From positions 4,656,036-4,720,035 of the forward strand of contig NZ_KZ987724.1 of NCBI RefSeq assembly GCF_003614185.1: DNA of 64,000 nt, read 5' to 3'. The position numbers were made by a program, and so were the translations under genes. This stretch comes from Paenibacillus aceti. Lineage in GTDB: Bacteria > Bacillota > Bacilli > Paenibacillales > Paenibacillaceae. Position 1 is the stretch's first letter. Each line of letters opens with the position of its first letter. The notes beneath the pieces are model-generated. The model had not been told where the DNA came from. It worked only from the letters and a program-made list of their open reading frames with translations, and searched no databases. Below are positions 8,373 to 63,645 of this stretch, one piece after another.

Positions 8373-8555
8373 TAATTGCACATAGTACAGCTAAATTTGC
8401 GGAAATCCTTCCAACCTAACTTTAGTTGCACAACGTACACTTAAAATAACCGGTTCCCATCATTCTACCCGGAATGGTTATTTTAAGTGTACAAAATACA
8501 TTTATATACGGCGCCGCCCAGTAATCCGGAGAATTAAGTGTACTTTTTGCAATTA
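8373..8555. repeat. Dyad element, family G (TAATTGCAC heads)
   Basis: Forward heads start at 8373 (TAATTGCACATAGTAC) and 8423 (TAGTTGCACAACGTAC); inverted heads end at 8504 and 8555 (TTTTTGCAATTA). Start spacings are 50, 58 and 51, total 183 bp. The core includes a perfect 17-bp inverted repeat, GTACACTTAAAATAACC at 8435-8451 against 8476-8492. The ends read TCTAA and TTAGA as in the other families. Confidence 0.75.
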
Positions 8556-8641
8556 GAGGTTGCGACTAATGGTGGTGCGGACTGGTGCGGACTACCAATG
8601 ATGCTGCTACTTCAGAGTTCCGACTTTCCTACCCAACCTAG

Positions 8642-10960
8642 CTAACCCTGAAAATCCTTCCTCCCATCCTTATACTCCAGTCGATAATCCCCCGGCGTTA
8701 GCCCCTCGTACTTCTTGAACAGACGGGTAATCCCGACCTCGCTGGCATAGCCCAATTGCAGGGCGATCTCCCGTACGGACAGATCGGTCGTGACGAGCAG
8801 TTCCTTGGCTCGGCCCAGCATATGCTTGGCGATGTAATCCTTCACATTCTCATGCTTATACTTCTTGAACACATTAGAGATATACTGAGGCGTGACCTCG
8901 AATTCCTGTGATAGGCGGTTCAGATCGAGCCAGTGTTCTCCCGCGTTCTCATCGATATATTCGGCAATCCGCTGGACCAGCTTCTCCGTCTTGCTGATGA
9001 CCCGATGGTCTGACAGTTCAGCGATCTTGTCGGTCATGTCCAGGAAGCGCCGCTTGGCCCCATCGAGTGAAGAATTGCCGATCAACTGTTCAATGATCCG
9101 CTCATCGGTCACAGGCTCATCCCCTCTAGCAACTAGAGAGAAATTCATAACTTTCAGCAGAGTGGAGGCGATCTCGTAGAGTAGCAGCCTGGCGGCCCCG
9201 ACCCCGATCCGCTTCGACATATTAATCTCGAAGACCGTATTCAGGAACTCCTTCGCTTCCACATACTGCCCCCTCTTCAACAGTTCCATCAGCTGATGCT
9301 CCGTCTCCATCGAATAATAATAGTCGAAATGCAGATGACCCAGATCGCCGAAGCAGACCGTTTCATACATATCCCGCAGCTTGCTGTATTCCAGCGCCTT
9401 CTTGGCTTCGTCATAACAATTCTGCAGGTTGACCAGCCGTGAATGAGGAGTGCTGATGCCCAGATTCAGATTCAACCGATAATGCTTGGCAGCAAACTGG
9501 ATCAGCGCATCTGCCTGCCGCTTGGCCAGAGCGACCGCCTCACTAGCTTCCAGACCCTCGCGCAGATTAAGCAGGTAGATCGATTGACTGCGGCCCGCAT
9601 CAAGGAAGTAACAAATGAAGTATTCACTCATCAGCTCGCAGCCGACATTTTCCGCCACCACGCGCGTAAGCGACAGACTCTTTTCCGATAAATTCGCATG
9701 ATCCATGAAGAACGAACTGTCCATATCGATCTCCAGCGCACCGATTAGGAACGTATCACTGGTGAAATCGATGCCGATCGAGGCGAGCTGCTGCGCGGCT
9801 TCATCATAATTGGTCATCATGCCCCGGATCAGGTTTAGCAGATAATCGCGCCGCACGATCGGAATTTGCTTCTCGATTACTTCAATCAGCTCTTTGCCAT
9901 TTTTAATTTGGTCGAGCAGCGTATTCTTGATGTTCTCGTATTCATTCCGGCCCTCCCCTGGCGCTTGAGCATGCGATTGGATCAGATCATTGATCTCCTT
10001 CAGCGGCTTGTAGCTGCGTCTGGCCAGGAAGCGGACGATGAGCAGCCCCCCGATCAGATAGATGAGGAAGATCGCGATAAAATTCATTAAATACTTCGTA
10101 TTCTCCTTGAAGTACAAGCTCTTCGGGGTGGAAGAGACATACTTCCAGCCATTCTTCTCCGATACGACCCGATTGATAATTTCCTCAGGCGTGCTGCTAC
10201 CGTTGACCATCTCATCGATCTTCTGGATATCGATCTCCGGCGCATTGTCCGAGCTGATGATCAGACGATTGCTTTTGTCCAGGATATAGACATCCGAATT
10301 CGTGACCTGATGTATCTGATTAACTAGCGAGAACATATTCTGGGCATCGATCAGGAAGATCACTTGCCCTAACGGCTCAGAGCTGGTCGTCATCGGGAAC
10401 GACTGGATATAAGGCAGCACCTCAATTGTATTACTCTCATATTGATTCATCGTCTGGATTGGCATATATTCCTGGAAGTGGTTGCCGTGCAAATATTCCT
10501 TGGCGAAGTCGTCATACTCCAGATCCTTGAACTCATACATCAGATGGAAGAACCTCTGGGCATCCATTTGAATATTCGGTGTGATGATCTCATCCACCCT
10601 ATTGATATAGACGAAATAGTCGAATAACAGCTCACGCGGCTTTCTTTTGCTAGCCATATCCTTCATCAGCTCGCTGTAGCTGTTCGTAGCACCTTTGGCG
10701 GCGAGCTCCAGCTTATTATTGAACACAATTTCATGGCTCAGCTCGCTAATATAGAGTAGATCGTCCTCAATTCCCGTCTTAAGCTGATTTAGCAGAGTGA
10801 CGGTGGACAGTTCGGTCTGCTTCGTAATCCGCTGGTTAATCTCGGCATAGTAGACGAACGCACTGGAGAGCGTAAGAACCAGAATAGAGATGTAAGACAA
10901 GACGAAGATGATATAGACACTATTCTTCTTTTTGAGTCTTGACTTGAAGGACTGGAACAA
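8642..10960 (-). CDS. Membrane-anchored AraC-family regulator with extracellular sensor domain
   Basis: About 772 aa from the preferred TTG start at 10960. The order is: N-terminal membrane helix (IIFVLSYISILVLTLSS), an extracellular region of roughly 250 residues, a second helix (FIAIFLIYLIGGLLIVRFL), a HAMP-like linker, a cytoplasmic middle domain, and a C-terminal AraC double helix-turn-helix (VTPQYISNVFKKY, then VREIALQLGYASEVGITRLFKK). The family senses an external sugar or polysaccharide signal and binds DNA directly from the membrane. The frame is open up to 11065, but AGGAAGTGAG sits just before the TTG and a cre box lies in the would-be extension, so the shorter form is preferred. 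No transporter is adjacent; the target is unknown. Confidence 0.85.
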   Translation of the reverse strand: MFQSFKSRLKKKNSVYIIFVLSYISILVLTLSSAFVYYAEINQRITKQTELSTVTLLNQLKTGIEDDLLYISELSHEIVFNNKLELAAKGATNSYSELMKDMASKRKPRELLFDYFVYINRVDEIITPNIQMDAQRFFHLMYEFKDLEYDDFAKEYLHGNHFQEYMPIQTMNQYESNTIEVLPYIQSFPMTTSSEPLGQVIFLIDAQNMFSLVNQIHQVTNSDVYILDKSNRLIISSDNAPEIDIQKIDEMVNGSSTPEEIINRVVSEKNGWKYVSSTPKSLYFKENTKYLMNFIAIFLIYLIGGLLIVRFLARRSYKPLKEINDLIQSHAQAPGEGRNEYENIKNTLLDQIKNGKELIEVIEKQIPIVRRDYLLNLIRGMMTNYDEAAQQLASIGIDFTSDTFLIGALEIDMDSSFFMDHANLSEKSLSLTRVVAENVGCELMSEYFICYFLDAGRSQSIYLLNLREGLEASEAVALAKRQADALIQFAAKHYRLNLNLGISTPHSRLVNLQNCYDEAKKALEYSKLRDMYETVCFGDLGHLHFDYYYSMETEHQLMELLKRGQYVEAKEFLNTVFEINMSKRIGVGAARLLLYEIASTLLKVMNFSLVARGDEPVTDERIIEQLIGNSSLDGAKRRFLDMTDKIAELSDHRVISKTEKLVQRIAEYIDENAGEHWLDLNRLSQEFEVTPQYISNVFKKYKHENVKDYIAKHMLGRAKELLVTTDLSVREIALQLGYASEVGITRLFKKYEGLTPGDYRLEYKDGRKDFQG

Positions 10961-11023
10961 TGGCTCACTTCCTAATGTTAAAATAATGAAAACTGAACGA
11001 TATAAATTTAGCCTACCACGCTT

Positions 11024-11037
11024 TAAAAGCGTTTTCA
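11024..11037 (-). promoter_or_regulatory. Candidate CcpA cre box upstream of the AraC regulator at 8642
   Basis: On the minus strand the site reads TGAAAACGCTTTTA, matching the cre consensus TGWAANCGNTNWCA at all positions except the C second from the end. It lies 64 bp upstream of the TTG start, where it could repress by roadblock or promoter occlusion. Confidence 0.55.
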
Positions 11038-11172
11038 AAGCATTTGAATCATGCATTTTGGCCACTTCTGCTGGGGCGCCAATGCTAGGACGTAAAGATA
11101 TTTCTGACTGAGTGACACAAATAGGAGGGGCCCATCGTTACTCCCCATGAAGAGGAGAAAGGAAGTGAGAGC

Positions 11173-11673
11173 GTGGACGCATTTTTGAAGATATATGATG
11201 GCTATTTCGATGATCTGTATCGGTATGTGCTGTTTCGGGTCGGCAATCGCTGGGATGCGGACGATCTGGTCAGCGACATTTTTCGCAAGGCGCTGGAATA
11301 TAGCTGCAAGAATGGGGGGACGATCCCGGAATATGATAAGGCTTGGTTATTCGCCATTGCGCATAACCGGATTATCGACCATTATCGCCGCAAGAAGGAA
11401 GCCGCCTATGGTATCGATCCTGAGCGGAGCGGCTACGATCATATTAGAGAGATGTTCCAGGAGGCGTCGGTGCAGAACGAATGCCTGGAGGAAGCGCTGC
11501 TCCAGCTGAAGCAAGAGGAGCGGGAGATGGTGCAGCTGAAGTATATGGTCGGCTTCGCCTATCAGGAGATGAGCCGGATGCTGGACAAGACGGAGGGCTG
11601 GTTGCGTACGCGTATGCATCGGATTCGGAAAAGACTTGCGGTCGACATCGATCGCTGCCTGGAGGAGGGATAA
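11173..11673 (+). CDS. ECF-type RNA polymerase sigma factor
   Basis: A 166-aa protein with sigma region 2 near residues 10-75 (WDADDLVSDIFRKALEY and the RIIDHYRRKK helix) and region 4 near 115-160 (YQEMSRMLDKTEGWLRTRMHR). This is the two-domain layout of extracytoplasmic-function sigma factors. The GTG start at 11173 is backed by AGGAAGTGAG. The gene at 11677 begins three bases after its stop and encodes a membrane protein that most likely acts as its anti-sigma factor. Confidence 0.9.
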   Translation: MDAFLKIYDGYFDDLYRYVLFRVGNRWDADDLVSDIFRKALEYSCKNGGTIPEYDKAWLFAIAHNRIIDHYRRKKEAAYGIDPERSGYDHIREMFQEASVQNECLEEALLQLKQEEREMVQLKYMVGFAYQEMSRMLDKTEGWLRTRMHRIRKRLAVDIDRCLEEG

Positions 11674-11676
11674 ATC

Positions 11677-13584
11677 ATGTCTGAACAGAATCCGAAGTGG
11701 GCCGATGATTTGAAGAAGGTTCATGAACAGCTGCGAGTTGACGAGCATTTCAAGGCGGAGCTAAGGCGTACCCTCATCGAGGAAGGACAGGAGCATTCGA
11801 GTACGAAGACCGAGCCATCTCAGCAAGGCAAACAACGGCGGTGGCATAAATACAAATCATGGACTTGGGGTGCGGCGGCGGTGGTTATCGCTACAATAGT
11901 GCTGCTCTGGAACCTTCTTCCCGGTCAGAATTTACCGCGCGTGAACGCCGCGGATTTGCAGCTTAAGCTGCAGTTCAATACCTTGCAGCAGCTTGGGCAG
12001 GAGACGAGCGTAGCTGTGGCGATGGATCAGGACACGACCTATTATGCTGTGCCGAAGCAAGGGATCTATCGTCAGCGTGGACTGGCCTATGAACAGATTG
12101 TATCGGGGGATGTGTCGGAGCTAGCGCTCTCCCCGGATGGGAAGCAGCTGGCTTATGTGGACGAGCGTAAGCTTCAGATTTGGGCTGCAGATACGGAGCA
12201 GACGAAGCTGGTATTGGAAGCCCCGGTACCACTAAGTGGCTTGGCCTGGTCGCAGGATGGGACGCGGCTCGCCTATGTCCGCCAAGGCCAAGATCCAGCT
12301 GTAGATACGATCTGGGAGATGCAACTCCAATCCGGCGAGCAGCGGAATTTAACTAAAGGTAGCTCTCCCTCCTACTTACTCAACGAAGAGAAGCTGCTCT
12401 ATGCCAAGCAGGAGCAGATTTACACACTCGATCTGAAATCCGGCACCGAGCAGCTATGGGGCGATGGATATTCACCAGTGATCTCCCCGGATGGCAAGTA
12501 TGTGCTCTACGTACGGAAGGATGGCGACGACCTGGAGCTGGAGGATGCCTGGGTATCGGATCTGGATCGACGGACGGAGCAGAGGATTACGCACAATCGT
12601 CCGATGGACGCTTGGAAGGATGGTCAGCCACAGGAAACAGGGCAGCAGCCTTCATACGCATTGACAGGTCTCGCCTGGAATACCGACGGCCAGAGTATCG
12701 CGATGTATCAGGTCACTGAGACGAATACTATATGGCGGCAGCTTGTCCGGTATACGCTGACAGAGCAAGAGGCCGGTCCAGAAGAGGTAGTAGCGCAGGC
12801 GATCGAGGCGCTTATCTATCGCGACGAACGGCATGCCCATGAGTTTTTCAACTATGATCCCGGGTATTTGAAGGGAACCTCTCCGCGTCAGGTTGGCTAT
12901 ACTATTGTTAATACAGCAGTGGAAGCGGACGGTCAGACGGTGGTTACTGCAAAAATTGATTATTCGCATTATGATCCGTATTATCGGGTGGACACTTATC
13001 GTTTCACACTCTCACAGGGAAGTGAGGGATATTTGATCGACAATATGGAGGAGATCGACAGCATCCGTATTACGGACTGGAGTGGTGAAATGGTTACGAC
13101 GACGGGGGATGATCAACGGGATCAATTGATATTCCGCTCCGATCAAGTCCCGACGGATCGTGGCTGGACGAATGTCGGATTCGGAAATATCGTCTACCGT
13201 GAATCAGACAGCGGACGTAAGATCTGGTTCCTGGTCAAGCAGCAGCAGGACGACCGCCATCGGATGCGCCTGATGCGATACGATTGGGATCAAGGAACGT
13301 TCCAAGCGTTGGGCATCCTTGACGGGATGACGAGGTCATCAATGATGATCATCGATGAATCGGAGCAGTGGGCAGCGATCGACGCGGCATTAGGCGAAGG
13401 CCAGAACGATATTGCGGTACTGCCGCTGAAGGCAGCCGATTCCATTCCAGTGTATCTGTCCACCAAGTTGCGGGGACCGACGCCCTATCAGACGATAGAT
13501 ACCCGCTTATGGAAGGTCAAGAGTCTCAGCTTCTATGTAGAATGGAATGACCGTGATGTGTTTTTTGAATATAGGCCGGAATAG
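11677..13584 (+). CDS. Membrane-anchored beta-propeller protein, probable anti-sigma factor
   Basis: 635 aa. The cytoplasmic N-terminal about 50 residues are helical and charged, followed by one membrane helix (AAAVVIATIVLLWNLLPG). The large outer part contains TolB/WD40-like blades such as LSPDGKQLAYV, WSQDGTRLAYV and SPDGKYVLYV, then a second domain of unknown fold. The three-base gap to the ECF sigma gene indicates translational linkage. By analogy with other sigma/anti-sigma pairs the short cytoplasmic segment would hold the sigma factor and the propeller would sense an envelope signal. This role is inference; no zinc-binding HxxxCxxC motif is seen. Confidence 0.75.
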   Translation: MSEQNPKWADDLKKVHEQLRVDEHFKAELRRTLIEEGQEHSSTKTEPSQQGKQRRWHKYKSWTWGAAAVVIATIVLLWNLLPGQNLPRVNAADLQLKLQFNTLQQLGQETSVAVAMDQDTTYYAVPKQGIYRQRGLAYEQIVSGDVSELALSPDGKQLAYVDERKLQIWAADTEQTKLVLEAPVPLSGLAWSQDGTRLAYVRQGQDPAVDTIWEMQLQSGEQRNLTKGSSPSYLLNEEKLLYAKQEQIYTLDLKSGTEQLWGDGYSPVISPDGKYVLYVRKDGDDLELEDAWVSDLDRRTEQRITHNRPMDAWKDGQPQETGQQPSYALTGLAWNTDGQSIAMYQVTETNTIWRQLVRYTLTEQEAGPEEVVAQAIEALIYRDERHAHEFFNYDPGYLKGTSPRQVGYTIVNTAVEADGQTVVTAKIDYSHYDPYYRVDTYRFTLSQGSEGYLIDNMEEIDSIRITDWSGEMVTTTGDDQRDQLIFRSDQVPTDRGWTNVGFGNIVYRESDSGRKIWFLVKQQQDDRHRMRLMRYDWDQGTFQALGILDGMTRSSMMIIDESEQWAAIDAALGEGQNDIAVLPLKAADSIPVYLSTKLRGPTPYQTIDTRLWKVKSLSFYVEWNDRDVFFEYRPE

Positions 13585-13636
13585 CCAGAGATAAATATAT
13601 AGATCCATCAGACAATTGGTTGAAAATTCCCATAGG

Positions 13637-13666
13637 AGATTCTTCCGTTACGGGGGGATCTTTTTT
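13637..13666 (+). terminator. Terminator after the anti-sigma gene
   Basis: AGATTCTTCCG pairs with CGGGGGGATCT (several G-T pairs) around a TTA loop, followed by six T. It closes the sigma operon 50 bp before the kinase gene. Confidence 0.7.
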
Positions 13667-13711
13667 GTTTTAGAATAGAGTTAACTTAAATGGCTATAGG
13701 AGAGGATTAGG

Positions 13712-22488: not shown

Positions 22489-22674
22489 AGTTTCTGCATC
22501 CCTTTCTTCATAAAGTGGATATGTGATGTTGGTGCTGTACGTTCAGTATATCTTCGGTTTGTTAATGGACTATTAAGTTGAACAAGGGAATTGTTGCATG
22601 TGTTGCAAATGTTGTATATCTTGTGTATCTTGTGTATCTCGGCTAATGCCTCGTTTAGGGAGAACCCCACTTTT

Positions 22675-22856
22675 TAACGAACCTGTGTATCGCTATTTAC
22701 GCCCAAAAGGGTGATTTTAAAACTTAACGAAACTAGGTATCGCTATTTCGGCGAAAAAGGGGCTAATGGTCGGATTTCGCTAAAATAACGATACAGAGTT
22801 TCATTAGATTCGAAATAGCGCCAATTTCGCAGAGATAGCGATATGGAGTTTCGTTA
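22675..22856. repeat. Dyad element, family A (TAACGAAAC heads), complete copy
   Basis: Forward heads start at 22675 and 22725 (TAACGAAACTAGGTATCGCT); inverted heads span 22783-22806 and 22833-22856 (ending TTTCATTA and TTTCGTTA). Start spacings are 50, 58 and 50, total 182 bp, with a single centre of symmetry at about 22766. It fills most of the 459-bp gap between the divergent HD and EamA genes; nothing else is recognisable there. Confidence 0.85.
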
Positions 22857-22947
22857 GGAACTCTCGCCTAGAGTTGGTGACAGATGGAACATTATTTGAT
22901 ACAGTGACCCTGTGTAACAGACATATCTTCATAGGGAAGTGGTATAT

Positions 22948-25921: not shown

Positions 25922-25982
25922 AAATGAAAAAGCCTGCAAACTCCGGGCTGTAGAAAAAGCGCTAGATGGTCCCTCTGACCTC

Positions 25983-26044
25983 TAACGAAACACCATATCG
26001 TTATTTGAGCAAAAATGAGGGAGATTGGAATCTAACGAAACATC
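25983..26044. repeat. Dyad element family A, left part of the copy split by the IS
   Basis: A complete forward head starts at 25983 (TAACGAAACACCATATCGTT) and the first half of a second head at 26033 (TAACGAAACATC) stops exactly at the insertion-sequence boundary. The spacing is 50. The rest of the second head is at 27335. Confidence 0.85.
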
Positions 26045-26070
26045 TGGACTTCTGTCAAAAAAGTGGACAG

Positions 26071-26907
26071 TTATGAAGCAGATTTTCTGTTAAACTGTGC
26101 AGCAAAGCGAACGGGGGAAAGATAGCCTAAGGCCCCATGGATTCGTTTGCGATTGTAATAAAACTCAATATATTGAAACAAAGCCTGGTAAGCTTGTTTC
26201 TTCGTTTTGAAGCGAGCATTGCAATAAATGAGTTCTTTTTTCAAAACACTATGCCAGGACTCGATGCACGCATTGTCATAGCAATTTCCTTTTCGACTCA
26301 TACTGGATAGCATCTGGTACTTTTTCAACTCTTTTCGGTATTCATGGGAGGTATACTGAGTCCCGCGGTCAGAGTGATGAATCAAGCCCTTCTTAGGACG
26401 TTTGGCTTTATAAGCGTCCTGTAAGGCTCCCAGCACCAGACTCGTTTCCATGTGGTTGTCTAAACGCCATCCTACAATCTCTCGAGTGCATAGATCCATA
26501 ACACTCGCAAGATATAATCGCCCCTCCCGGCAAGGAATATACGTGATATCGGTTACCCAAACCGTGTTGGGTTGGGATACGTTAAATTGCTGATTCAGAT
26601 GATTAGGTTCAATCGGATGGTCATGGTCAGAATCTGTAGTTCGCACGCGAAACTTCCTAGATACCACGGAGCGTAACTTCATTTCACGCATATACACACT
26701 CACCGTTCGTTCCGCAATGGGGTGCCCTTCCTGATGCAGAAGATGGGTGATTTTAGGGCTGCCATAACGCTTTTCATGGTCATGGAAATGGTACTGAATA
26801 CGATCCATCACAGCCTTCTTCCGAAGCGCCTGCTCGCTGGGTTTCTTGATTCTCCATTTGTAATAACCGCTCCGGGAAACCTGAAGGACTTTGCACATCT
26901 TCACCAA
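26071..26907 (-). CDS. IS3-family transposase OrfB (DDE integrase domain)
   Basis: 278 aa. A HTH_21 region (RYGSPKITHLLHQEG) precedes the rve integrase core. The catalytic triad is visible: Asp in WVTDITYIP, Asp in HHSDRGTQYTS and Glu in NACIESWHSVLKKE with the usual following Lys. It is probably made mainly as an OrfAB fusion by minus-one frameshifting from OrfA, since the minus-one frame is open from the slippery site at 26979-26985 into this gene. Confidence 0.93.
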   Translation of the reverse strand: MVKMCKVLQVSRSGYYKWRIKKPSEQALRKKAVMDRIQYHFHDHEKRYGSPKITHLLHQEGHPIAERTVSVYMREMKLRSVVSRKFRVRTTDSDHDHPIEPNHLNQQFNVSQPNTVWVTDITYIPCREGRLYLASVMDLCTREIVGWRLDNHMETSLVLGALQDAYKAKRPKKGLIHHSDRGTQYTSHEYRKELKKYQMLSSMSRKGNCYDNACIESWHSVLKKELIYCNARFKTKKQAYQALFQYIEFYYNRKRIHGALGYLSPVRFAAQFNRKSAS

Positions 26908-26945
26908 AGAGAACTCGGAGCGATGTTCTTCAATAAATTGAAATC

Positions 26946-27263
26946 TTAGTTCTTTGGTTTGCTGAAGATGTGCACTGCTTTTTTTACGATGGCTAGTTCT
27001 TCTTCGACATCTGCAATCTTTTGCTCTTTTTCCTGGAGTTGACGGCTCATTTCATTCAATTGGGCTTCCAACTCTCGTACCCGATCTGCACGGGCTGCCG
27101 GTTCGTTCTTTAATTCCCGATACTGGCTCATCCATTGGTGTAAGGTACTTCGAGGAATATTCAATTCCTCCGCCAGATCGGCTACCGTTTTGGTTTGTTC
27201 TTGAATGAACCTTACCGTTTGTTTCTTGAACTCTTCGTTATAACGTTGTCTCTGTTCTCCCAT
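26946..27263 (-). CDS. IS3-family transposase OrfA (helix-turn-helix, leucine-zipper)
   Basis: 105 aa. The N-terminal helix-turn-helix (VADLAEELNIPRSTLHQWM) recognises the IS ends, and a C-terminal coiled coil (VRELEAQLNEMSRQLQEKE) mediates multimerisation. Near its end the codons GTA AAA AAA GCA give a slippery run; shifting back one base continues in frame into OrfB. Confidence 0.93.
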   Translation of the reverse strand: MGEQRQRYNEEFKKQTVRFIQEQTKTVADLAEELNIPRSTLHQWMSQYRELKNEPAARADRVRELEAQLNEMSRQLQEKEQKIADVEEELAIVKKAVHIFSKPKN

Positions 27264-27334
27264 GTGGACACCTCCGTTGGTCTCATTATCTCCAGTCTGT
27301 TAACTGGTGTCCACTTTTTATTCTAGCAGCAATC

Positions 27335-27405
27335 ATATCGCTATTTTGATGAAATCTACGGTTTAAGGCAGAAAAATGCCCCAATAGCGATACCTGGTTT
27401 CATTA
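27335..27405. repeat. Dyad element family A, right part of the copy split by the IS
   Basis: ATATCGCTATTT at 27335-27346 completes the forward head interrupted at 26044, and an inverted head spans 27382-27405 (ending GGTTTCATTA). With the IS and one ATC removed, head starts are 25983, 26033 and 26092, spacings 50 and 59 as in other copies. The fourth head, expected near 27432, is not recognisable. Confidence 0.8.
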
Positions 27406-27514
27406 CATTTTAGCGCAAGCACGGTTTCGCGTTCTACGAAGCTATGCATTGATCAACAACCTGCAGATTTGCAGACTTTTCCTCAATAATATAGGTGATT
27501 TACGCAGTATGGTA

Positions 27515-32721: not shown

Positions 32722-32949
32722 TTACTTTCCTCTCTTTCAAAGGGATACTACATTATATTAGTTACATTTTAACCGAAATATGATCGTAAATACACATAAT
32801 CTAATAATAGTGTACATAAATAATGAAATTTGATCATAATAGGATAACCTTCTTAAAAGCAAATTTCCCCCAATCCAACAAAAATCCTTGTCAAATCGGC
32901 GCAGGAATTCTATAATGGGTAGCAACTTAAATTGCATACTGGATGAAGT

Positions 32950-33160
32950 TTACGGGAGACAAGCGGGTAGGCTTGGCCGAAGGGGCATTAAACTCTCAGG
33001 CGCTGTAGAGAAGGGGTAACACCCGGACTTGAAGCAGGACCGTAAGCGGACAGGACTCTGGAGAGACTCCGTAGATGGAGCACCGAAGGGGCAATACGCG
33101 CGCAGCAGCAAGTTAGCGAATGAGCCGCGTTAAAACTCTCAGGTAAAAGGACAGGGATTG
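32950..33160 (+). ncRNA. Tandem glycine riboswitch
   Basis: Two aptamer-like modules follow each other. The first has GGGAGAC, GGCCGAAGGGGCATTAA and ACTCTCAGGCGC; the second has GGAGAGACTCC, CACCGAAGGGGCAATAC and AACTCTCAGGTAAAAGGACA. These are the conserved cores of the gcvT-type glycine riboswitch. It precedes a terminator at 33298 and a sodium:glycine/alanine symporter gene, a known target in Bacillales. Confidence 0.92.
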
Positions 33161-33297
33161 CAGGATCGATCTTCGCGTTTTTGCGTCATAGATGCCGGAT
33201 ATTCACGGCGGAGGCGGAGCGGATATGTGTTTATTTTCACATTAATCCTCTCATTCACCTTTATATTGGCGTACCGGAAATCTGCAATAACGTCCCC

Positions 33298-37012: not shown

Positions 37013-37487
37013 AGGGGCTGTCCAATAAGCCTCTAAAATAAAAAGTTGGTCGGAGAAACGTCATGTTTTCTGTCCAACTTTTTTGTGGGCCAAAGCCACA
37101 ATCCCAAACTCCGTATTTATTCGCGTCGGCTTCGATCCTTGTACCATCTATTAAGCTTGCGTGGCGCAAGAGACAAACACGGATGTTCAGGACTCTCCGC
37201 TGATCTAGCGGTCACAAATGTCCGTTAGAGCCTGTAAACGACAACTACCCGCCTCTAACGGACACTTTGACCCTTAGAAGCACAAAATGCAATTTTTCAC
37301 GACAATTTCCCTTGTAATGGACATTATTGTCCGTTACAAGGGCGGGATGCCACAGAATCAACGCTAACGGACATTTATGTCCGTGTCCGAGTGATCTGGC
37401 CAGAACAGGGGATGTTCACATCTTTGGGCACGCAAAAGAGGCGTCTTTCAAGTCGGAAGATCCACTTTTGAGACAACCCCTTCTTTT
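37013..37487 (-). mobile_element. IS1182-family relic, internally deleted
   Basis: The ends are imperfect inverted repeats, AAGGGGCTGTCCAATAAG at the left and AAGGGGTTGTCTCAAAAG read inward from the right. On the minus strand near 37090-37160 a fragment translates to IDGTRIEADANKYGVWDCG, the DGTxIEAxANxY motif of IS1182-type transposases, without a full gene around it. A dyad element of family E lies in the middle. A hairpin at 37040-37084 (AAAAAGTTGG/CCAACTTTTTT) near the left end may terminate the regulator transcript. The 661-bp stretch 37001-37661 holds nothing else recognisable. Confidence 0.65.
37206..37387. repeat. Dyad element, family E (TAACGGACAT heads)
   Basis: Heads start at 37206, 37256, 37315 and 37365, spacings exactly 50, 59 and 50. 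Each head is itself near-palindromic (TAACGGACATTTATGTCCGT). TGATCT occurs at 37201-37206 and again at 37392-37397, a possible 6-bp target duplication. The element lies inside the IS1182 relic. Confidence 0.75.
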
Positions 37488-39740: not shown

Positions 39741-39766
39741 TTCCTCAGAGGATACATACCTGTCTC

Positions 39767-39949
39767 TAACGAAACTGTGGAGCGCTATTGTGCGAAAAAC
39801 AAGGGCCATTTGATTCTAATGAAACTACATATCGTTATTTGAGCCAAATACGGACTAAAGTACGGTAAATTGGCATGATAGCGATACCCTGTTTCATTAG
39901 AAATCAAAACGGCCCTTTTTGGTGTAAATAGCGATGCTACGTTTCGTTA
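39767..39949. repeat. Dyad element, family A, complete copy
   Basis: Forward heads start at 39767 (TAACGAAACTGTGGAGCGCT) and 39817 (TAATGAAACTACATATCGTT); inverted heads span 39876-39899 and 39926-39949. Spacings are 50, 59 and 50, total 183 bp. It fills the gap between the 39522 gene and the convergent metallo-hydrolase, with CTCTAA at the left end and TTAGAG at the right. Confidence 0.85.
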
Positions 39950-39953
39950 GAGT

Positions 39954-51303: not shown

Positions 51304-51417
51304 GACTCGAAGGGCTGCTTATCAAGTAGACTTGCCCATTGGCCGTATGCCGAAGCCCCTTTTAGGCCCTTCGTTCACAGCATGCGTTCAGCAAAAGTAT
51401 CACGATTCCGGAAAATT

Positions 51418-51603
51418 CCTGCGAAAATGCATCTTTTTAGCGGAGATGGCCCCTATAAAATGGAAAAGCCTGCGGAAATGCAGGTATTTCCGAAAATTTG
51501 GTCTTGTTTTAAGCTAAAGTGGAGAAAAGCCTGCACATTTGCAGGTATTTCCTCGAAAAGCCGATTAAAATGCAAAAAGCCTGCAAATCTGCAGGCTTTT
51601 TGC
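51418..51603. repeat. Dyad element, family F (CCTGCnnnnTGCAGG heads)
   Basis: Heads start at 51418, 51469, 51530 and 51580; spacings 51, 61 and 50. The better ones read CCTGCACATTTGCAGG and CCTGCAAATCTGCAGG, self-complementary. The last head with AAAAAGCCTGC/GCAGGCTTTTTG may also act as a terminator. The 521-bp stretch 51304-51824 holds this and, at 51685-51714, a hairpin (GCGACCG/CGGTCGC) of unknown role. Confidence 0.7.
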
Positions 51604-53713: not shown

Positions 53714-54187
53714 TAACGTTTCCTCCATTTCGTATCACTTGTATCCGCATCATAGCACCGCTTTTTAAACGGAATGTAAACGAGGGCTGAACGCAGGCAA
53801 CGCGGGGACTGGAGGGGTACAGCGAATATTTTTACACTAATCAGGTATAATTCTGCTAGTCCGCGACTATATTATAAGAGTGTGTTTCGAGCACATAATT
53901 TAGAAAAATTTATAATGACCTCAATAGAAATACGGCTCATATTGTTGTTACAGGCGTTAAAGAAAGTGACTTGAATCATTCTTTACACAGGGTACAGGCA
54001 TTAAATTCGAAATAGGACAGTTGCATATTACGGCAAACTGAACTATAATGAGAATAAATGTAATTTTGACCTGAACTCACATATTGTAGAGGGTTATGAT
54101 TTTAAGCGCGTAGCCTTGTGCAATATGTGATTTTTATTTTTTAACGAATATAGAGGTCATATAAATTAATTTTTGGAGGTAATATTC
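53714..54187. other. Intergenic region with cold-shock mRNA leader
   Basis: 474 bp without a gene between the drrA-like gene and the cold-shock gene. The part from about 53880 on is AT-rich and probably includes a long 5' leader for the cold-shock mRNA, as is usual for csp genes; I cannot place the transcription start. Confidence 0.4.
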
Positions 54188-54388
54188 ATGGAAACAGGAA
54201 CAGTTAAATGGTTTAACGCAGAGAAAGGCTTTGGCTTCATCGAGGTTGAAGGCGGCAACGATGTATTCGTACACTTCAGTGCAATCGTCGGCGATGGCTT
54301 TAAATCCCTGGACGAAGGCCAACGTGTTGAGTTTAACGTTGTTCAAGGCAACCGCGGTCCACAAGCTGAGAACGTTGTTAAACTGTAA
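54188..54388 (+). CDS. Cold-shock protein, CspA/CspB family
   Basis: 66 aa, the usual length. RNA-binding motifs are RNP1 KGFGFI and RNP2 VFVHF. It binds single-stranded RNA/DNA and keeps mRNA unfolded at low temperature. The ATG at 54188 follows TTTGGAGGT. Confidence 0.96.
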
Positions 54389-54410
54389 GCTAGCCTAAAG
54401 AGAAGATAAT

Positions 54411-54442
54411 ATGCCCCAGACGTTTCAGTTTGGGGTATTTTA
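54411..54442 (+). terminator. Terminator after the cold-shock gene
   Basis: ATGCCCCA pairs with TGGGGTAT (one G-T pair) around a 12-base loop, followed by TTTATTTT. Confidence 0.75.
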
Positions 54443-57609: not shown

Positions 57610-57816
57610 CGCTATCACCTCTTGTTAGCATTATACATCTACTATGGAAAATTAACAAGATAACTTTTTGTAACCAATATGTGAAGGTTGAATTAGATTT
57701 TATAAATACACCTACTTACATAAAGTAACCGTAAGAGTTACCATTATACATTAGTGATATACTAACTACACGAAATTAATGATAACGGAATTCTATAAGC
57801 TAGAGGATGTGTGCTC

Positions 57817-58806
57817 ATGTCGAATCGAAGATGGTTAATTGGACTCATCGTCCTCGTCGTCGGTCTTGGCTATATTCTGTCCCAATTTATTCTCTCTACT
57901 ATGAAAATAAATGAGCTGGTGCAGCAAATCGGCCACAGCAATGCGGAGACAGCTCAGGTAAAATATGTAGTGTTAATCTCGCAGGAGCTGGACAATCCGT
58001 TCTGGCGGGAAATGGAGAAGGGAGCGGAGGCTGCGGCAGACAGGCTGGGAATCAAGCTCGGCTACATCGGTCCGATCCGCAGTAATCCTGCAGAGCAGAT
58101 CAGACTGCTGGAGAAAGCCATTACTGCCAGACCCGATGCAATATTAGTCCAAGGAATGGCCGATCCAGGCTATGACCAGCTGATCAGTGCGGCGGCAGAT
58201 CAAGGAATACCGGTACTCACCGTGGATGCGGATGAACCCGAATCTCGGCGGCTTGCCTACGTAGGTACGGATAATCGTGCCGCTGGGGAACAGCTGGGCA
58301 GGCTCGTACTGCAGGATGCCTCCAGCAATGGCCGAATCGGAGTCATTATCGGCAGTGAACTGGCGGATAATCAGCGTTTAAGGCTTGAAGGCTTCCGTTC
58401 AATCATCGCCGCTTCGCCGGATCATGAGATTGTAGACATCCGCTCCTCTAATATTTCACATATCGGAGCAGCGCAGCAGACGAAGGATATGTTAAGCCAG
58501 GATGGAGATATAGGGATGATCGTCGGTTTTAGCTCCCTGGATGCAGGAGGCATAGTTGAGGGAATCAAGGCTGCCCATAAGGAAGGAGTGCGGGTGTACG
58601 GATTTGATGATTTGGAGATCACCCGCCAAGGCATCGCCCGCGGGGAGATTATAGCTTCTATTGTGCAGCAGCCCAGAGAGATCGGGGCGAAGTCGATCGA
58701 ATGGCTTAGCAGTTTTTTTAATGGGGAAAAGCTATCAGACCGATACTATATTCCTACATACATTCTGGAACAAGAGGCGTCGGCCGTTGGGGGAGTTCGC
58801 CCATGA
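57817..58806 (+). CDS. Membrane-anchored periplasmic-type sugar-binding protein (sensor component)
   Basis: About 329 aa. A single N-terminal membrane helix (WLIGLIVLVVGLGYILSQF) without a lipobox anchors a ribose-type (Peripl_BP_4) binding domain: LISQELDNPFWREMEKGAE, ILVQGMADPGYDQLISAAAD, YVGTDNRAAGEQLG and VYGFDDLEITRQGIARG. No permease follows; the next genes are a kinase (58803, overlapping by four bases) and a regulator. It is therefore likely the sugar-detecting part of a three-component system, as XylFII is for LytS in Clostridium. The ATG at 57817 follows AGAGGATG. Confidence 0.88.
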   Translation: MSNRRWLIGLIVLVVGLGYILSQFILSTMKINELVQQIGHSNAETAQVKYVVLISQELDNPFWREMEKGAEAAADRLGIKLGYIGPIRSNPAEQIRLLEKAITARPDAILVQGMADPGYDQLISAAADQGIPVLTVDADEPESRRLAYVGTDNRAAGEQLGRLVLQDASSNGRIGVIIGSELADNQRLRLEGFRSIIAASPDHEIVDIRSSNISHIGAAQQTKDMLSQDGDIGMIVGFSSLDAGGIVEGIKAAHKEGVRVYGFDDLEITRQGIARGEIIASIVQQPREIGAKSIEWLSSFFNGEKLSDRYYIPTYILEQEASAVGGVRP

Positions 58807-60278
58807 ATATGCGCAGAATGTTGTTTATCGTGATCCCGGCGTTGTTTATTTTAAATAATGCAGTCTCCTTCTTTATCTTCCAGAGCGGCCGCACCGTTCA
58901 GCAGAGCTATAATATGATGCTGGATCGGGTATTATTGTACAAGCAGATCGATGAGCAGACGCAGCGGAATCTAAGTGCGATTAATGTTTATCTGATGGAT
59001 CGCAGTTCCAGCAGCCTTGAATTGTACAAGGAGAGAAATGAGGAACTGAAGGAGCTACAGTTGAATTTATCGAGACAGGAAGCGGTTGATTCTACCGAGT
59101 TCAATATTCGGGGCTTCCGCCATCTACTGTCCACCTTTATTTCGCAAGAACAGAGCATTTTGAATTCCCTAAAAAGCACAGCCCCACTGGCCTATGCGCC
59201 ATCCTATGCGGAAGCGGAGAAGACAGCAGTTTTCATCCAGGAAGAGGCCTATCAGCTTATTGATCTAGAGCTGAGCTACTATCAGCCGCTTTACAAGAAG
59301 ATACTGGTTCAGACAGACATGATGAATCATTGGGGGATCGCTGTTTTTATATTGAATACGGTGATCAGTGTCTTGCTTGCCTATTGGATCTCTCTGCGTA
59401 TTACAAGGCCTATCCAGGAGCTGACCCGGACTGCGGAGCAAATATCGGACGGGAATCTACAGGTGCGCCCTCCACAGATCAGCGCTCGGAATGAGTTCCG
59501 TGTCTTATCTGAGGCATTCCGCCAAATGCAGCATAATTTACTGCTGCTGATCGAGAAGGAGAAGGAGGGGCTGGAGAAGGACAGGCTGGTCAAGGAATTG
59601 GAGCTGGAGGTGCTGCAGAATCAGATCAACCCGCATTTTCTGTTCAACTCTTTGAATATGCTGTCCAAGCTGGCTTTGCTCGAAGGCGCGGAACAGACCA
59701 GTGATCTGACGGTATCGATGTCCAACTTGCTCCGTTATAACCTGCGGAAATTGGATCGTCCAGTGACATTGAGGGAAGAGGTGGAGCATGCGCAGGAATA
59801 CTTCTTCATTCAGCAGGCCCGCTTCCGTGAGCGCATCCAGTTTGAAGTGGACATTGATGAAGCAGCGCTTGATGTGCTTGTGCCCGTGCTGACGCTGCAG
59901 CCGATTCTTGAGAACGGATTTGTACACGGGATCGAGGGCATGGAGCAAGGGGCCGTGGTCAAGCTGGCGATTTCCTGTAAGCCTGATGAGATCTGGGTCG
60001 CGATATCGGATAATGGGGCTGGTATGAGCGAAGAGGTTCGAAAGTCCTTGCTGGATCTGGACACGGATCGGGCTCCTGCTGAGGGAGAGGAAACTGCTGG
60101 AAAGGGCCATTCGACAGGTCTGGGCACTCGCAACGTGTTCAAGCGGCTGGAGCTATTTTATAACAAGAAGGATATGATTGACATCGAGAGTGAGCCGGGT
60201 AAAGGCACGACTGTGATTATCCGGATTCCTGCTACGGGAAAGGAGGGCAGACATGTATCGCTTACTGATCGCGGATGA
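58803..60278 (+). CDS. Sensor histidine kinase of three-component sugar sensor
   Basis: 491 aa: membrane helix (MLFIVIPALFILNNAVSFF), extracellular helical domain, second helix (GIAVFILNTVISVLLAYWI), HAMP, His_kinase domain with NPHFLFNSLNM (His near 278) and ATPase domain with ENGFVHGIEG and DNGAG. The gene overlaps the binding-protein gene at its start and the regulator gene by 26 bases at its end. The bound sugar-binding protein probably controls its activity. Confidence 0.92.
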   Translation: MNMRRMLFIVIPALFILNNAVSFFIFQSGRTVQQSYNMMLDRVLLYKQIDEQTQRNLSAINVYLMDRSSSSLELYKERNEELKELQLNLSRQEAVDSTEFNIRGFRHLLSTFISQEQSILNSLKSTAPLAYAPSYAEAEKTAVFIQEEAYQLIDLELSYYQPLYKKILVQTDMMNHWGIAVFILNTVISVLLAYWISLRITRPIQELTRTAEQISDGNLQVRPPQISARNEFRVLSEAFRQMQHNLLLLIEKEKEGLEKDRLVKELELEVLQNQINPHFLFNSLNMLSKLALLEGAEQTSDLTVSMSNLLRYNLRKLDRPVTLREEVEHAQEYFFIQQARFRERIQFEVDIDEAALDVLVPVLTLQPILENGFVHGIEGMEQGAVVKLAISCKPDEIWVAISDNGAGMSEEVRKSLLDLDTDRAPAEGEETAGKGHSTGLGTRNVFKRLELFYNKKDMIDIESEPGKGTTVIIRIPATGKEGRHVSLTDRG

Positions 60279-61614
60279 TGAAGCCCTGGAGAGAGAAGGG
60301 ATCGAGTGGATTGTGAACCGGATGATGCCGGACACGTTTGAGATCATTCACGCCGAGAATGGCCGGATGGCGATTCAGAAGGCGGCGGAGTTCCATCCCC
60401 ATATCGTGTTGATGGACGTGAGGATGCCGGGGATTCAAGGATTCGATGCTCTGAAGGAGATCAAGGCACAGAATCCGCATACCAAGATGGTGATGATCAC
60501 CGCTTATGAATATTTTGAATACGCCAAGAAAGCGATAGCGCTAGGGGTTCAGGAATACCTGGTGAAGCCGGCCAAAAGAACCGAGGTCGCAGCAGTATTA
60601 CAGCGGCTGGTCGATGAGATTAAGGAGGAACGGTTCAAGCGTGATGAGCAGCTGGCGGTAAGAGATAAGTTCCTGCAGCTGCTTCCACTGGCCGAGACGG
60701 AAATTGCTCTGCATTTGATGGCCGATCAGGTGAATGAGACGGAGCTAGAGCAGCTGGTCGATATCCTGGGGCTGTCCATCGGTGCGGGGTGCGCGCTGGT
60801 TCTGGCTTATCCTGAGCTTGGAGATGACAAGAAGAGAACGTATGATACGGTCAAAACCTTGACCCATGAATGGACCAAAGGGCGTTTTTTCGCTGTAGTA
60901 AGCTCCATGGTGTATCATCATATGGCGGTATTTCTAGTGGGGGAGTCGGAGCAACAGGATAAGGACGGAATCCGCGACGAAGCGGCGCTTCTGGCCGACA
61001 AGCTGGCAGCAGCTCTATATGAGCATTGCGGAGTTACGATATCGATTGGCATCGGTTCAGTGCAGCGGGCGGCTGAAGGGCTGAGGCGCTCCTATTATGA
61101 AGCTGTATTTGCCTCCAAATATGATCAATGGGGGAATATTATCCGTTTTGAAGATCTGAATATCACCGCCTCGGAAGCTCCTAGTAAGACGGAGGAGAAG
61201 GCTCTATCATTACCGTCTTTTTATCGGTCGGAGGGAGAGAGTGAATATGTGGAGCTGGCGATCCGTCAGATTCGCGAGGAGCGTGAACAGAGCACCAGCA
61301 ACATGCTGAACCGGGCGATGTCCTATATTCATAGCAAGTATCAGGAGGATCTATCCCTTGAAGATGCCGCAGAGCATGTTCATTTGAATCCGTATTATTT
61401 CAGCAAGGTATTCAAGCAGCAGACGGGAGAGACCTTCATAGACTATGTAACCAGGCTGCGCATCGATAAGGCCAAGGAAATGCTGAAGGATAGCCGCCTT
61501 AGTATGAAGGAAGTATGCTATTCTGTCGGGTATAAGGATCCGAATTATTTTAGCAGAGTGTTCAAAAAAGTAACCGGAGTAACCCCATCCGAATATCGTA
61601 CGCAGCTTCGTTAG
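60253..61614 (+). CDS. Response regulator with AraC-type output, YesN type
   Basis: 453 aa. The receiver has DDE at 8-10 and the phosphorylated Asp at 55 (IVLMDVRMPG), with LVKPAK later. A middle domain precedes the C-terminal AraC double helix-turn-helix (AAEHVHLNPYYFSKVFKQQ and EVCYSVGYKDPNYFSRVFKK). It is coupled to the kinase at 58803 and most likely activates the sugar porter at 61853. Confidence 0.92.
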   Translation: MYRLLIADDEALEREGIEWIVNRMMPDTFEIIHAENGRMAIQKAAEFHPHIVLMDVRMPGIQGFDALKEIKAQNPHTKMVMITAYEYFEYAKKAIALGVQEYLVKPAKRTEVAAVLQRLVDEIKEERFKRDEQLAVRDKFLQLLPLAETEIALHLMADQVNETELEQLVDILGLSIGAGCALVLAYPELGDDKKRTYDTVKTLTHEWTKGRFFAVVSSMVYHHMAVFLVGESEQQDKDGIRDEAALLADKLAAALYEHCGVTISIGIGSVQRAAEGLRRSYYEAVFASKYDQWGNIIRFEDLNITASEAPSKTEEKALSLPSFYRSEGESEYVELAIRQIREEREQSTSNMLNRAMSYIHSKYQEDLSLEDAAEHVHLNPYYFSKVFKQQTGETFIDYVTRLRIDKAKEMLKDSRLSMKEVCYSVGYKDPNYFSRVFKKVTGVTPSEYRTQLR

Positions 61615-61627
61615 ATGACTGATGACG

Positions 61628-61656
61628 AGTCCATGTTCCTGAACGTGGACTTTTTT
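61628..61656 (+). terminator. Terminator after the response regulator
   Basis: AGTCCATGTT pairs with AACGTGGACT (one G-T pair) around CCTG, followed by six T. The porter at 61853 therefore probably has its own promoter in 61657-61850. Confidence 0.8.
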
Positions 61657-61852
61657 GTCATGACAGATATAAAAAGTGCTAATGAATGCGCTTGTTCGGC
61701 CTCAGTGAGGGAGGGCATTAATATTATGCTGGCATTGCACAAATTAGTGAAGGGATTCAGACGCTGGATAGAATCGTCCCCGTGTTACAATGATTTTGGA
61801 TTTCCGGGAAGTATAGGAGATCTTGAAGAAGTTCAACATAGAAGGGACGTAG

Positions 61853-63232
61853 ATGATGAGCTCAAATATACCAGAACAAGGCGAACGAGTCAGTATGAAA
61901 TTCGTTACCCTGGTGTCCATAGTGGCTGCTCTGGGCGGGGTATTGTTCGGTTTTGATACCGCTGTAATCTCCGGTGCAATCGGATTCATGCAGCAGCATT
62001 TTGATCTTAATGAGTTTCAGGTGGGCTGGGCCGTCTCCAGCTTGATTATCGGTTGTATCGTCGGAGCCATGTCCTCCGGGGTGCTCAGTGAGAGATTCGG
62101 TCGTAAAAAAGTATTGATCACTGCGGCGATCCTCTTTATTATCGGGTCCGCCTTTTCCGCTGTGCCAGTTACATTCAGTCAATTTATTATCGCCCGTATG
62201 ATCGGCGGGATCGGGATCGGCATTACATCGACCTTATGTCCTCTGTATAATGCGGAGATTGCTCCGGCAAAATATCGCGGTCGGCTGGTAGCATTGAATC
62301 AGCTGGCAACGGTTACAGGGATCTCGCTGGTTTATTTCGTGAATTTATGGATCACGGGCCTGGGTAGCGAAGCATGGGGCATCTCCTCCGCTTGGCGCTG
62401 GATGTTCGCCTTCGGCCTCATCCCAGGCGTATTGTTCCTGGTTCTTCTATTCCTCGTGCCTGAAAGCCCAAGATGGCTGATCAAGCAGGGTCGGGCCGCT
62501 GAATCCTTACCGATTCTGGTGAAGATTCACGGAGAGACGCTGGCCAAGCAGGAAGTACTGGAGATTAAGGAATCGTTCAGAGTAGAGAACGGATCGATCC
62601 GCCAATTGTTCAGTCCGGCACTACGGCTGGCTCTGATCGTTGGTGTCGGATTAGCGATTCTGCAGCAGGTTACCGGAATTAATGCGGTGCTCTACTATGC
62701 GCCGGAGATCTTCAAGCAGACGGGCGCGGGTACGAATGCGGCCCTGATTCAGACGATCTTCGTCGGTGTCATCAATCTGCTGTTCACGATCCTGGCCATT
62801 TGGCTGATCGATAAAGTGGGCCGCAAGATGCTTCTGCTGGTGGGTTCCTCAGCCATGCTGATCTGTCTGATCGTCATCGGGGCGGCCTTCCAGACGGGGC
62901 ATACCTCTGGTCCATGGGTGCTGATCTTCATCCTGATTTATGTCGCCGCTTTTGCGGTGTCGCTAGGCCCGGTGGTGTGGGTGGTCATCTCCGAGATCTT
63001 CCCGAACCGTATCCGCGGCAAAGCTACAGCGATCGCATCGATGGCCCTGTGGACCGCCGATTACGTCGTATCCCAGACTTTCCCGCCGATGCTCGTATCC
63101 GCAGGCCCGGCGCTCACCTTCTGGATCTTCGGCCTGATGGCCCTGATCACAGTGATCTTCACCTGGCGCGCAGTCCCCGAGACCAAGGGCAAAACGCTCG
63201 AAGAAATCGAGTCCTTATGGGCTGCTAAATAG
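61853..63232 (+). CDS. MFS sugar porter (sugar:H+ symporter, SP family)
   Basis: 459 aa, twelve membrane helices. Sugar-porter signatures are GGVLFGFDTAVISGA in helix 1, ERFGRKK after helix 2, APAKYRGRLVALNQL, PESPRWLIKQGR at the end of the first half, QQVTGINAVLYYAPEIF in helix 7 and PETKGKTLEEIE at the end. It resembles bacterial xylose, arabinose, galactose or glucose porters. It lies just after the three-component sensor, its probable regulator. Start at ATG 61853 or 61856, both behind GAAGGGA. Confidence 0.93.
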   Translation: MMSSNIPEQGERVSMKFVTLVSIVAALGGVLFGFDTAVISGAIGFMQQHFDLNEFQVGWAVSSLIIGCIVGAMSSGVLSERFGRKKVLITAAILFIIGSAFSAVPVTFSQFIIARMIGGIGIGITSTLCPLYNAEIAPAKYRGRLVALNQLATVTGISLVYFVNLWITGLGSEAWGISSAWRWMFAFGLIPGVLFLVLLFLVPESPRWLIKQGRAAESLPILVKIHGETLAKQEVLEIKESFRVENGSIRQLFSPALRLALIVGVGLAILQQVTGINAVLYYAPEIFKQTGAGTNAALIQTIFVGVINLLFTILAIWLIDKVGRKMLLLVGSSAMLICLIVIGAAFQTGHTSGPWVLIFILIYVAAFAVSLGPVVWVVISEIFPNRIRGKATAIASMALWTADYVVSQTFPPMLVSAGPALTFWIFGLMALITVIFTWRAVPETKGKTLEEIESLWAAK

Positions 63233-63240
63233 CTACTATA

Positions 63241-63277
63241 AAGAGGCTTCCCGTCGTTAATTGGGAAGCCTCTTTTC
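63241..63277 (+). terminator. Terminator after the sugar porter
   Basis: AAGAGGCTTCCC pairs perfectly with GGGAAGCCTCTT around a 10-base loop, followed by TT. Confidence 0.85.
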
Positions 63278-63311
63278 GTAGGGGCTATACGCCATTAGCA
63301 CGCTCGGCCAG

Positions 63312-63645
63312 GTTCGAAACTAGGCATCGCTATTTGCGCTTAAACGGGGCGTTCCAGAATCTAACGAAACTGTGCATCGCTATTTGCGTCTCAAGGGGTC
63401 GTTCCGAATTCCAACGAAACGTGGTATCGACTATTTGGGCCTCAAAGGGCCGTTCCAGATTCTAACGAAACGTGGTATCGCTATTTGCGCCCAAAAGGCC
63501 CATTCCAGATTCTAACGAAACTGTATATCGCTATTTGGGCAAATTTGCGCTCTAAACCCCAGATTTCCGGTGAATAACGATATGGTGTATCGTTAAAATT
63601 TTTTTACCGTTGTTTTTGCGAAAATAACGATCTGTAGTTTCGTTA
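63312..63645. repeat. Dyad element, family A, expanded copy with extra 50-bp units
   Basis: Forward heads start at 63312 (diverged), 63362, 63412, 63463 and 63513; inverted heads span 63572-63595 and 63622-63645. The last four have spacings 50, 59 and 50 like the other copies; three more forward units were added upstream at 50- or 51-bp steps. Full units read TAACGAAAC, then a CTATTTGCGC core and a CGTTCCAGATTC-type end. Confidence 0.85.

Follow-up and report, generated by a model that had tools for sequence, protein, structure and literature searches.

Intergenic regions of the soil bacterium Paenibacillus aceti carry a dispersed class of short elements in which four dyads recur at fixed distances, whereas the sequences of the dyads differ between families of elements. 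We describe these four-dyad elements in a 64,000-nucleotide stretch of the genome (G000:C1:4656036-4720035; the window, by which we mean the whole stretch) and in sampled DNA amounting to 2.06 Mb of the same 5.6-Mb genome. Each element is a discrete, non-coding, dispersed unit of ~185-205 bp with four imperfect dyads (heads) of ~22 bp each. The layout is ~50/62/50, 50/60/50 or 51/61/51 bp depending on the family, the central distance being ~59-62 bp in all five families of this genome. An initial annotation of the window had proposed six such sites, all of which exist where it had placed them, and had read their constant spacing as a sign of selection on geometry. This claim is supported: the arm distances are kept within ~1 bp, the spacers are only 45-58% identical, and other genera and families show the layout with different heads. 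The elements are a kind of interspersed repeat, and may be a previously undescribed kind.

The layout is apparent without reference to any motif. A self-similarity scan of 1.66 Mb, masked stretches included, in which a 20-mer was compared with itself at offset d (17 of 20 positions matching), gave 90 events at offset 50 and 35 at offset 51, against at most 5 at any other offset between 20 and 64; the 50/59/50-type spacing is thus far above chance. Offsets 65-69 and 112 peaked too; these correspond to other repeats, perhaps arrays of clustered regularly interspaced short palindromic repeats plus another repeat. A four-site grid scan confirmed the 50-bp arm distance and was blind to the central distance, because the inverted match persists when the centre shifts. 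Scoring matrices trained on seed heads gave five families (A, E, F, G and G2), each in multiple copies: matches numbered 108-481 per family (1.66 Mb, both strands) as compared to 0-4 in base-shuffled sequence (one strand). The head consensus is TAACGAAACnnnnTATCGyTATTTG in A, TAACGGACAnnnnTGTCCGTTA in E and CCTGCAnnnnTGCAGG in F, the G and G2 heads being of TTGCA/TGCA types. The ATTTGCG sequence said to follow the head is present in the A consensus and absent from that of the other families. A spacing-aware search, of the kind that the initial annotation had proposed, yielded 193 elements, 185 in the 2.06 Mb of the own genome and 8 in stretches of two relatives; the class is larger than the initial annotation had noticed. 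All four heads are present in 154 of the 193 elements, 148 of these in the own genome.

Clusters of heads most often comprised four units (92 of 187 clusters), the others one (46), three (19), two (16) or five or more (14). In clusters that were not chosen for spacing, the distance between the two forward A heads was exactly 50 bp in 47 of 52 cases (49 or 51 in the remainder), that between the two inverted A heads was 50 bp in 47 of 47, and the central, forward-to-inverted distance was 62 bp in 45 of 52 (60-61 in the remainder). For F heads, the arm distances were 50-51 bp in 54/54 cases and the central distance 61 bp in 27/27. The only within-family spacings beyond 49-52 and 59-62 were two G-G values, 11 and 43. 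A held-out stretch of the own genome (0.8-1.2 Mb), obtained after the first 1.66 Mb, gave nearly identical spacings, the exceptions being two A values of 45 and 46. The order of heads was two forward followed by two inverted in 116 of 191 A clusters, counted in the own genome and in 67 loci picked for A matches; the other clusters were partial (33 single, 10 ++-, 7 ++, 6 +-- and 6 --), irregular or tandem.

Heads are better conserved than the spacers between them. In 109 elements, all selected for layout, the pairwise identity of heads was 0.84 (A), 0.80 (F), 0.81 (G), 0.81 (G2) and 0.93 (E) and that of spacers 0.55, 0.45, 0.49, 0.58 and 0.79, respectively, with flank nulls of 0.32-0.53 across families (0.32-0.41 for A, F, G and G2; 0.32 for F). 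The main evidence that spacing is selected is that the F distances are fixed (54/54 and 27/27) though the F spacers are only 0.45 identical. Within the heads, compensatory change between the two arms showed no consistent excess over independent columns in A, F, G and G2 (237 A, 153 F, 114 G, 49 G2 and 55 E distinct heads). Small pairing excesses occurred at G position -10 and at G2 positions -12/-13, several G and G2 positions paired below expectation (G position -7: 0.08 vs 0.28 expected), and the E heads, whose copies are close homologues, had a pairing excess at the outer columns. Mutual information over 33 aligned A elements gave a subfamily signal and no clear pairing. As arm covariation is not consistent, the heads look like two unlike half-sites, for example TAACGAAA and TAGCGATA in A; half-sites across families frequently seem to begin TAR-N-K, as read by eye. 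As a correction to the initial annotation, the dyads formed by the A, G and G2 heads are asymmetric, and these heads are not self-complementary.

The elements have sharp ends: information content, high within the elements, drops to ~zero beyond the outer dyads of A, F and G, A keeping weak conservation over ~20 bp. The E similarity extends beyond the element because of an outer unit, and the ten G2 copies in the boundary analysis include close homologues. They also differ between relatives, which were scanned with the matrices trained on the own genome: G003 (Paenibacillus sp. GM2, of the same genus), G008 and G046. In the segment 4.42-4.88 Mb, 13 of 29 elements could be assigned a position between blocks that align with G008 or G003, and for 11 of these 13 no element was detected in the matching gap; of the other two, one faces F elements in both relatives and one faces an F-like element (scored G) in G008 only. 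The F element of the window at 51413 faces a 37-bp gap in G003 and G008, and the E element at 37205 a 32-bp gap, the own gaps (538 and 469 bp, respectively) being longer than the elements; the G003 gap matching the A element at 22673..22858 is 89 bp long, with no element detected. The region matching the A element at 39765 has a four-head F element in G008 and an F remnant in G003. At the place matching window position 27467, the F element is four-headed in G008, reduced in G003 and represented by one head in the window, likely a remnant of an F element. G046, G003 and G008 all lack two A elements that lie near 0.27 Mb in the own genome, one of which has three heads. Empty sites cannot be fixed to the base because the relatives' blocks are ~70-94% identical and the junctions have diverged.

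Counts of A heads at up to 2 mismatches, given in pairs, were 237/243 in the own genome, 246/243 in G003, 114/120 in G008 and 79/74 in G046. Four of 41 same-genus genomes have 153-489 A matches, and the other 37 have 0-5 each. Across the order, an exact A-like head was found in 15 of 296 genomes, representing 7 of 48 genera and three families (control, 0). Among the matches listed, A-type sequences occur in Paenibacillus sp. GM2, D2_2 and BK033, in P. glycanilyticus, P. ginsengihumi and P. alvei and in a metagenome-assembled genome; again among those listed, the ten same-contig pairs within 200 bp outside the own genome, from five genomes of other genera, all lie at 50, 51, 108 or 158 bp, as the layout predicts. 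Ten places from five other genomes and one earlier locus, chosen for a 50-51-bp arm signal or an A-like head, were then scored with the arm distances left free (of 15 stretches, L156, the second L158 stretch and L090 were omitted, and L089 and L094 repeat L153 and L158). Both arms were at 50-52 in seven of the ten; two were ambiguous, 50-52 being one of their best solutions, and the last (score 35) was not above the controls. Scores were 35-52 of 63 for the ten places and 30-35 for five control stretches. At the dyads, the central distance was 61 in L153, 62 in L154 and 61 in L140; in the other places, the scored centre and the dyad centre do not coincide. No clear element was found in 80 kb of G009, and the E pattern had no match in viral contigs.

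Neighbouring elements are likely phased at ~10.3 bp, one turn of DNA, but this is not settled. The 24 facing-head distances between neighbours of different families within 30-100 bp fall at 40.5, 49.5-51.5, 61.5-64.5, 68.5-72.5, 78.5, 82.5 and 91.5-92.5 bp, giving R=0.73 at 10.3 bp, a value matched by 0/5000 uniform and 0/5000 smoothed sets. A-F pairs make up 16 of the 24, some by composite descent. Four held-out pairs share the phase of the remainder (-1.33 bp vs -1.36 bp), and four homologous linkers of 71.5, 72.5, 82.5 and 92.5 bp align, their lengths differing by about one or two turns. With modelled elements of the own genome and GM2 (n=21), 4/4000 sets under a uniform null reached the observed phasing. 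GM2 also holds tandem arrays whose repeat unit is an entire A element together with a unique linker, exact heads recurring every ~211-212 (L181), 244 (L199), 272 (L202), 201 (L204) and 220 bp (L223); the facing distances in GM2 tandem A arrays are 39, 49, 58, 61-62, 82 and 83-84.

The explanation that we favour, with middling confidence, is that these DNA elements are mobile but non-autonomous and carry, on one face of the helix and in a fixed layout, four dyads to which protein binds. The four paired-arm sites are probably docking sites for a putative DNA-binding protein. The dyads are spaced by ~5, 6 and 5 helical turns. On each of them would sit a dimer of a protein (or of related paralogues) that recognises a specific DNA sequence, and the four occupied dyads, lying on one face of the helix, would form a single assembly. 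The element would be mobile without being autonomous, and its spread would go through a synaptic complex that requires the layout; the dyad sequences would diverge into families, the layout staying fixed. The protein, its binding as dimers, the complex and the mode of mobilisation are what we infer from the sequence. The initial annotation had offered a multi-site protein complex and a small mobile unit as separate possibilities: both are compatible with the data and they are not mutually exclusive; the phasing favours a DNA-bound protein without settling the matter. More tentatively still, and as a possibility that we hold doubtful, the elements might form a superfamily of mobile four-operator elements across the order, in which the phased layout is conserved, recognition sequences evolve freely, as matched fours, and unlike neighbours in register join one assembly.

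Several points weigh against this reading, and many of them concern the phasing. Only four held-out pairs are genuinely between elements, as three of the seven held-out distances lie within one element (F scored as G) and were excluded, and the distance range noted beforehand was 30-130 bp, that used being 30-100 bp. A related group of junctions (64.5, 70.5 and 72.5) differs by 6-8 bp, not by a whole turn. The support is weaker when related junctions are merged into group medians (49/5000 sets reach the phasing), and 7/5000 do so with one value per family pair and rounded distance. Modelled elements gave 26/4000 when both outer heads were detected (n=12) and 65/4000 when imputed heads were allowed (n=15), both under a uniform null; with a limit of 150 bp (18 modelled distances), R was just 0.24 at 10.4 bp, and the GM2 tandem arrays alone were not significant (255/4000). 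Concerning the elements themselves, (i) the comparison of head and spacer identities rests on elements selected for their layout; (ii) absence in relatives means absence of detection, because own-genome matrices were used and some gaps are 0.9-2.4 kb long; (iii) no target-site duplication was found, the copies being diverged and old enough for its loss; (iv) neither an autonomous parent insertion sequence (IS; 1.66 Mb, and for family A 2.06 Mb plus 67 loci) nor a candidate for the binding protein was found; (v) the elements fold better than shuffled sequences, with mean z of -5.2 (A), -8.7 (E), -6.4 (F), -3.2 (G) and -2.5 (G2) for 14 elements per family, both strands and 25 shuffles each; and (vi) one retained F head shows two paired changes between G003 and G008.

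The best surviving alternative, although we consider it unlikely, is that the elements are ordinary parasites resembling miniature inverted-repeat transposable elements (MITEs), with a layout inherited from a founder and a geometry that has no further role in resident copies. Dispersal, the patchy distribution of A (4/41 same-genus genomes are rich), the subfamily signal and the decay to partial copies in GM2 all fit such parasites, as does the presence of E copies within MITE-like units: ends GGGG[CT]TGTC/GACA[AG]CCCC were found on both sides of 11 of 21 own E copies and on one side of 7 (search within 450 bp, one mismatch allowed, chance rate ~0.09 per side). The 11 two-ended units are 276-471 bp long, seven of them at 430-471 bp. 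MITEs include RUP, Correia and ERIC. Like them, the elements are small, non-coding, dispersed and without a transposase of their own, have inverted ends (the inverted order was found for family A) and are present or absent at orthologous sites. They differ from MITEs by four internal sites of constrained spacing, and no parent IS or target duplication was found. Ordinary parasites also fit poorly with the spacing that holds while spacers lose much of their identity, with the same layout in families of unrelated heads, and with linker lengths that look phased. A TA/CTAG target duplication was considered and dropped, as TCTA belongs to the head and a later check found nothing.

Gene-sized gaps interrupt two A elements, and both come from IS3-type insertions. 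In the window, the insertion spans ~26045-27331 with ATC on both sides (limits and duplication read by eye). In the second element (C1:1106965-1110640), IS3 genes of that kind, pointing the other way, interrupt the centre of the second head at the same spot as in the window and have ACC on either side; its 3.8-kb gap, considered as a possible source of parent genes, holds IS3- and IS66-type genes, the IS66-type element adjoining the IS3 insertion. These two cases, with duplications read by eye, suggest that this IS3-type IS aims at the centre of the A head. The one gene seen between heads of a single family, a 396-aa gene that follows the third head of a G element and precedes the fourth (C1:626650-628090; L040), was also rejected as a parent: its product is a Mutator-type transposase, it has ends of its own that are unrelated to the element, and it is most simply an insertion.

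A benefit to the host is less probable still. A chromosomal protein would then bind the elements, which would be retained because they serve as bidirectional 3' ends or insulators or as sites of nucleoid bridging. Their location speaks for this: none of 109 and none of 138 elements lies inside a gene predicted by our own simple open reading frame (ORF) scorer (segments S1-S3), 45 of the 138 are in convergent gaps (20 divergent, 73 co-directional), compared with 14.8% of the element-free intergenic length (23.5% divergent, 61.7% co-directional), and gene 3' ends lie at a median distance of 106 bp, 5' ends at 332 bp. Further, F heads resemble two-way intrinsic terminators, and one of them persists as a paired hairpin in GM2 after the remainder of the element decayed. 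However, selection against promoter disruption would explain the convergent bias as well, A, G and G2 heads make poor hairpins, 11 of the 13 placeable elements have no detected counterpart in the two relatives, and 37 of 41 same-genus genomes have few or no A-type matches.

A structured four-hairpin RNA, as the initial annotation had considered, or a cruciform-forming DNA is disfavoured and in our view very improbable. The folding scores (z from -2.5 to -8.7) and the paired changes that separate two species in one F head are consistent with it; however, folding beyond shuffles is what any dyad array would show, and those paired changes suggest that single heads may be reused as terminators. 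The head arms show no consistent compensatory change within the genome, and no Rfam match at the elements reaches the gathering score, the sub-threshold matches (microRNA and small RNA families) being judged chance.

Least of all do we expect repetitive extragenic palindromic (REP) sequences or bacterial interspersed mosaic elements (BIMEs) spread by a REP-associated tyrosine (Y1) transposase (RAYT): the elements share with them and with REPINs short, imperfect extragenic palindromes arranged in inverted pairs, high copy number, both orientations and heads that differ between species, but they have four sites at fixed spacing, several head families in one layout and likely phased neighbours, no GTAG or CGTC foot is seen in the head consensus sequences (read by eye, with no separate scan made), and a RAYT is excluded as the general mobiliser because Y1_Tnp (PF01797) has no match at E <= 0.001 in the A-rich G003 and G008. 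According to the passages seen of PMC3733652, REP units occur singly, as dimers and in clusters, most dimers having spacers of 20-100 bp. The own genome has 14 Y1 matches, all of one score and in a 157-aa frame, with no sign of a link to the elements; they are most simply an IS200-type element.

The features of the window are collected in Table 1. The element that the initial annotation had assigned to a family G is real and matches the G2 matrix; a separate G-type element nearby had been overlooked, as had the split A element, the lone F head and two further forward A heads.

Table 1. Four-dyad elements and related features of the window (positions counted from its first letter; no strand assigned).
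Feature	Position	Details
G-type four-site element, overlooked earlier	8082..8255	dyad centres 8133.5, 8194.5, 8244.5; first weak, G match 8090.5
G2-type element (family G of the initial annotation)	8372..8557	dyad centres 8383, 8433, 8494, 8545 (50/61/51)
A-type element	22673..22858	dyad centres 22685, 22735, 22796, 22846 (50/61/50); two forward, then two inverted
A-type element, IS3-type insertion within second head	25981..27409	intact heads 25993, 27395; fourth head unrecognised
Lone F head	27455..27482	centre 27467.5
MITE-like unit of ~467 bp carrying the E-type element	37014..37480	ends GGGGCTGTC / GACAACCCC
E-type four-site element	37205..37388	dyad centres 37216.5, 37266.5, 37325.5, 37375.5 (50/59/50); second head degenerate, scored under detection threshold
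A-type element	39765..39951	dyad centres 39777, 39827, 39889, 39939 (50/62/50)
F-type element	51413..51600	dyad centres 51425.5, 51476.5, 51537.5, 51587.5 (51/61/50)
Extra forward A heads preceding the A element at 63461	63360..63434	63372, plus a weak one at 63422
A-type element	63461..63647	dyad centres 63473, 63523, 63585, 63635 (50/62/50)

Outside the window, a stretch of the own genome (C1:2547900-2556100) has G and G2 elements in three near-identical repeats. Apart from the elements, the window holds tandem glycine riboswitch aptamers at 32943-33164, upstream of an ORF at 33181, and a match to the cspA thermoregulator at 54119-54441, whose 74.2 bits are just under the gathering score of 78.

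Two other known arrangements resemble the elements. The ends of Tn7, Tn552 and IS21-type transposons carry repeated transposase-binding sites of ~22 bp, two direct sites per end and inverted at the opposite end, as here; in contrast, intact copies of the present elements have no gene between the halves and a central distance of ~59-62 bp. AraC and lac provide phased operator arrays and short-range DNA looping in which dyad spacing follows the helical repeat; the elements may share this spacing and differ by their hundreds of dispersed, probably mobile copies and their several head sequences. We know of no other system with this four-site architecture. A literature search covering titles and the openings of abstracts, with subscription papers and preprints outside it, gave no description of such elements in Paenibacillus; the terms searched for in PMC10969869 had no occurrences, and the passages seen of PMC3733652 describe no such elements.

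Bacterial interspersed repeats are usually recognised by their sequence. Here the layout is conserved and the sequence is not, with five families in one genome, and A-like heads in this layout reach three taxonomic families of one order. If the phasing is true, the shared register of unlike neighbours might mean that unlike elements join one protein assembly on DNA. It would point to a DNA-binding assembly, so far undescribed, that can change its specificity; such an assembly would account for the hundreds of intergenic elements in each genome and would offer a direct test of how multi-site elements gain new recognition while keeping their architecture.

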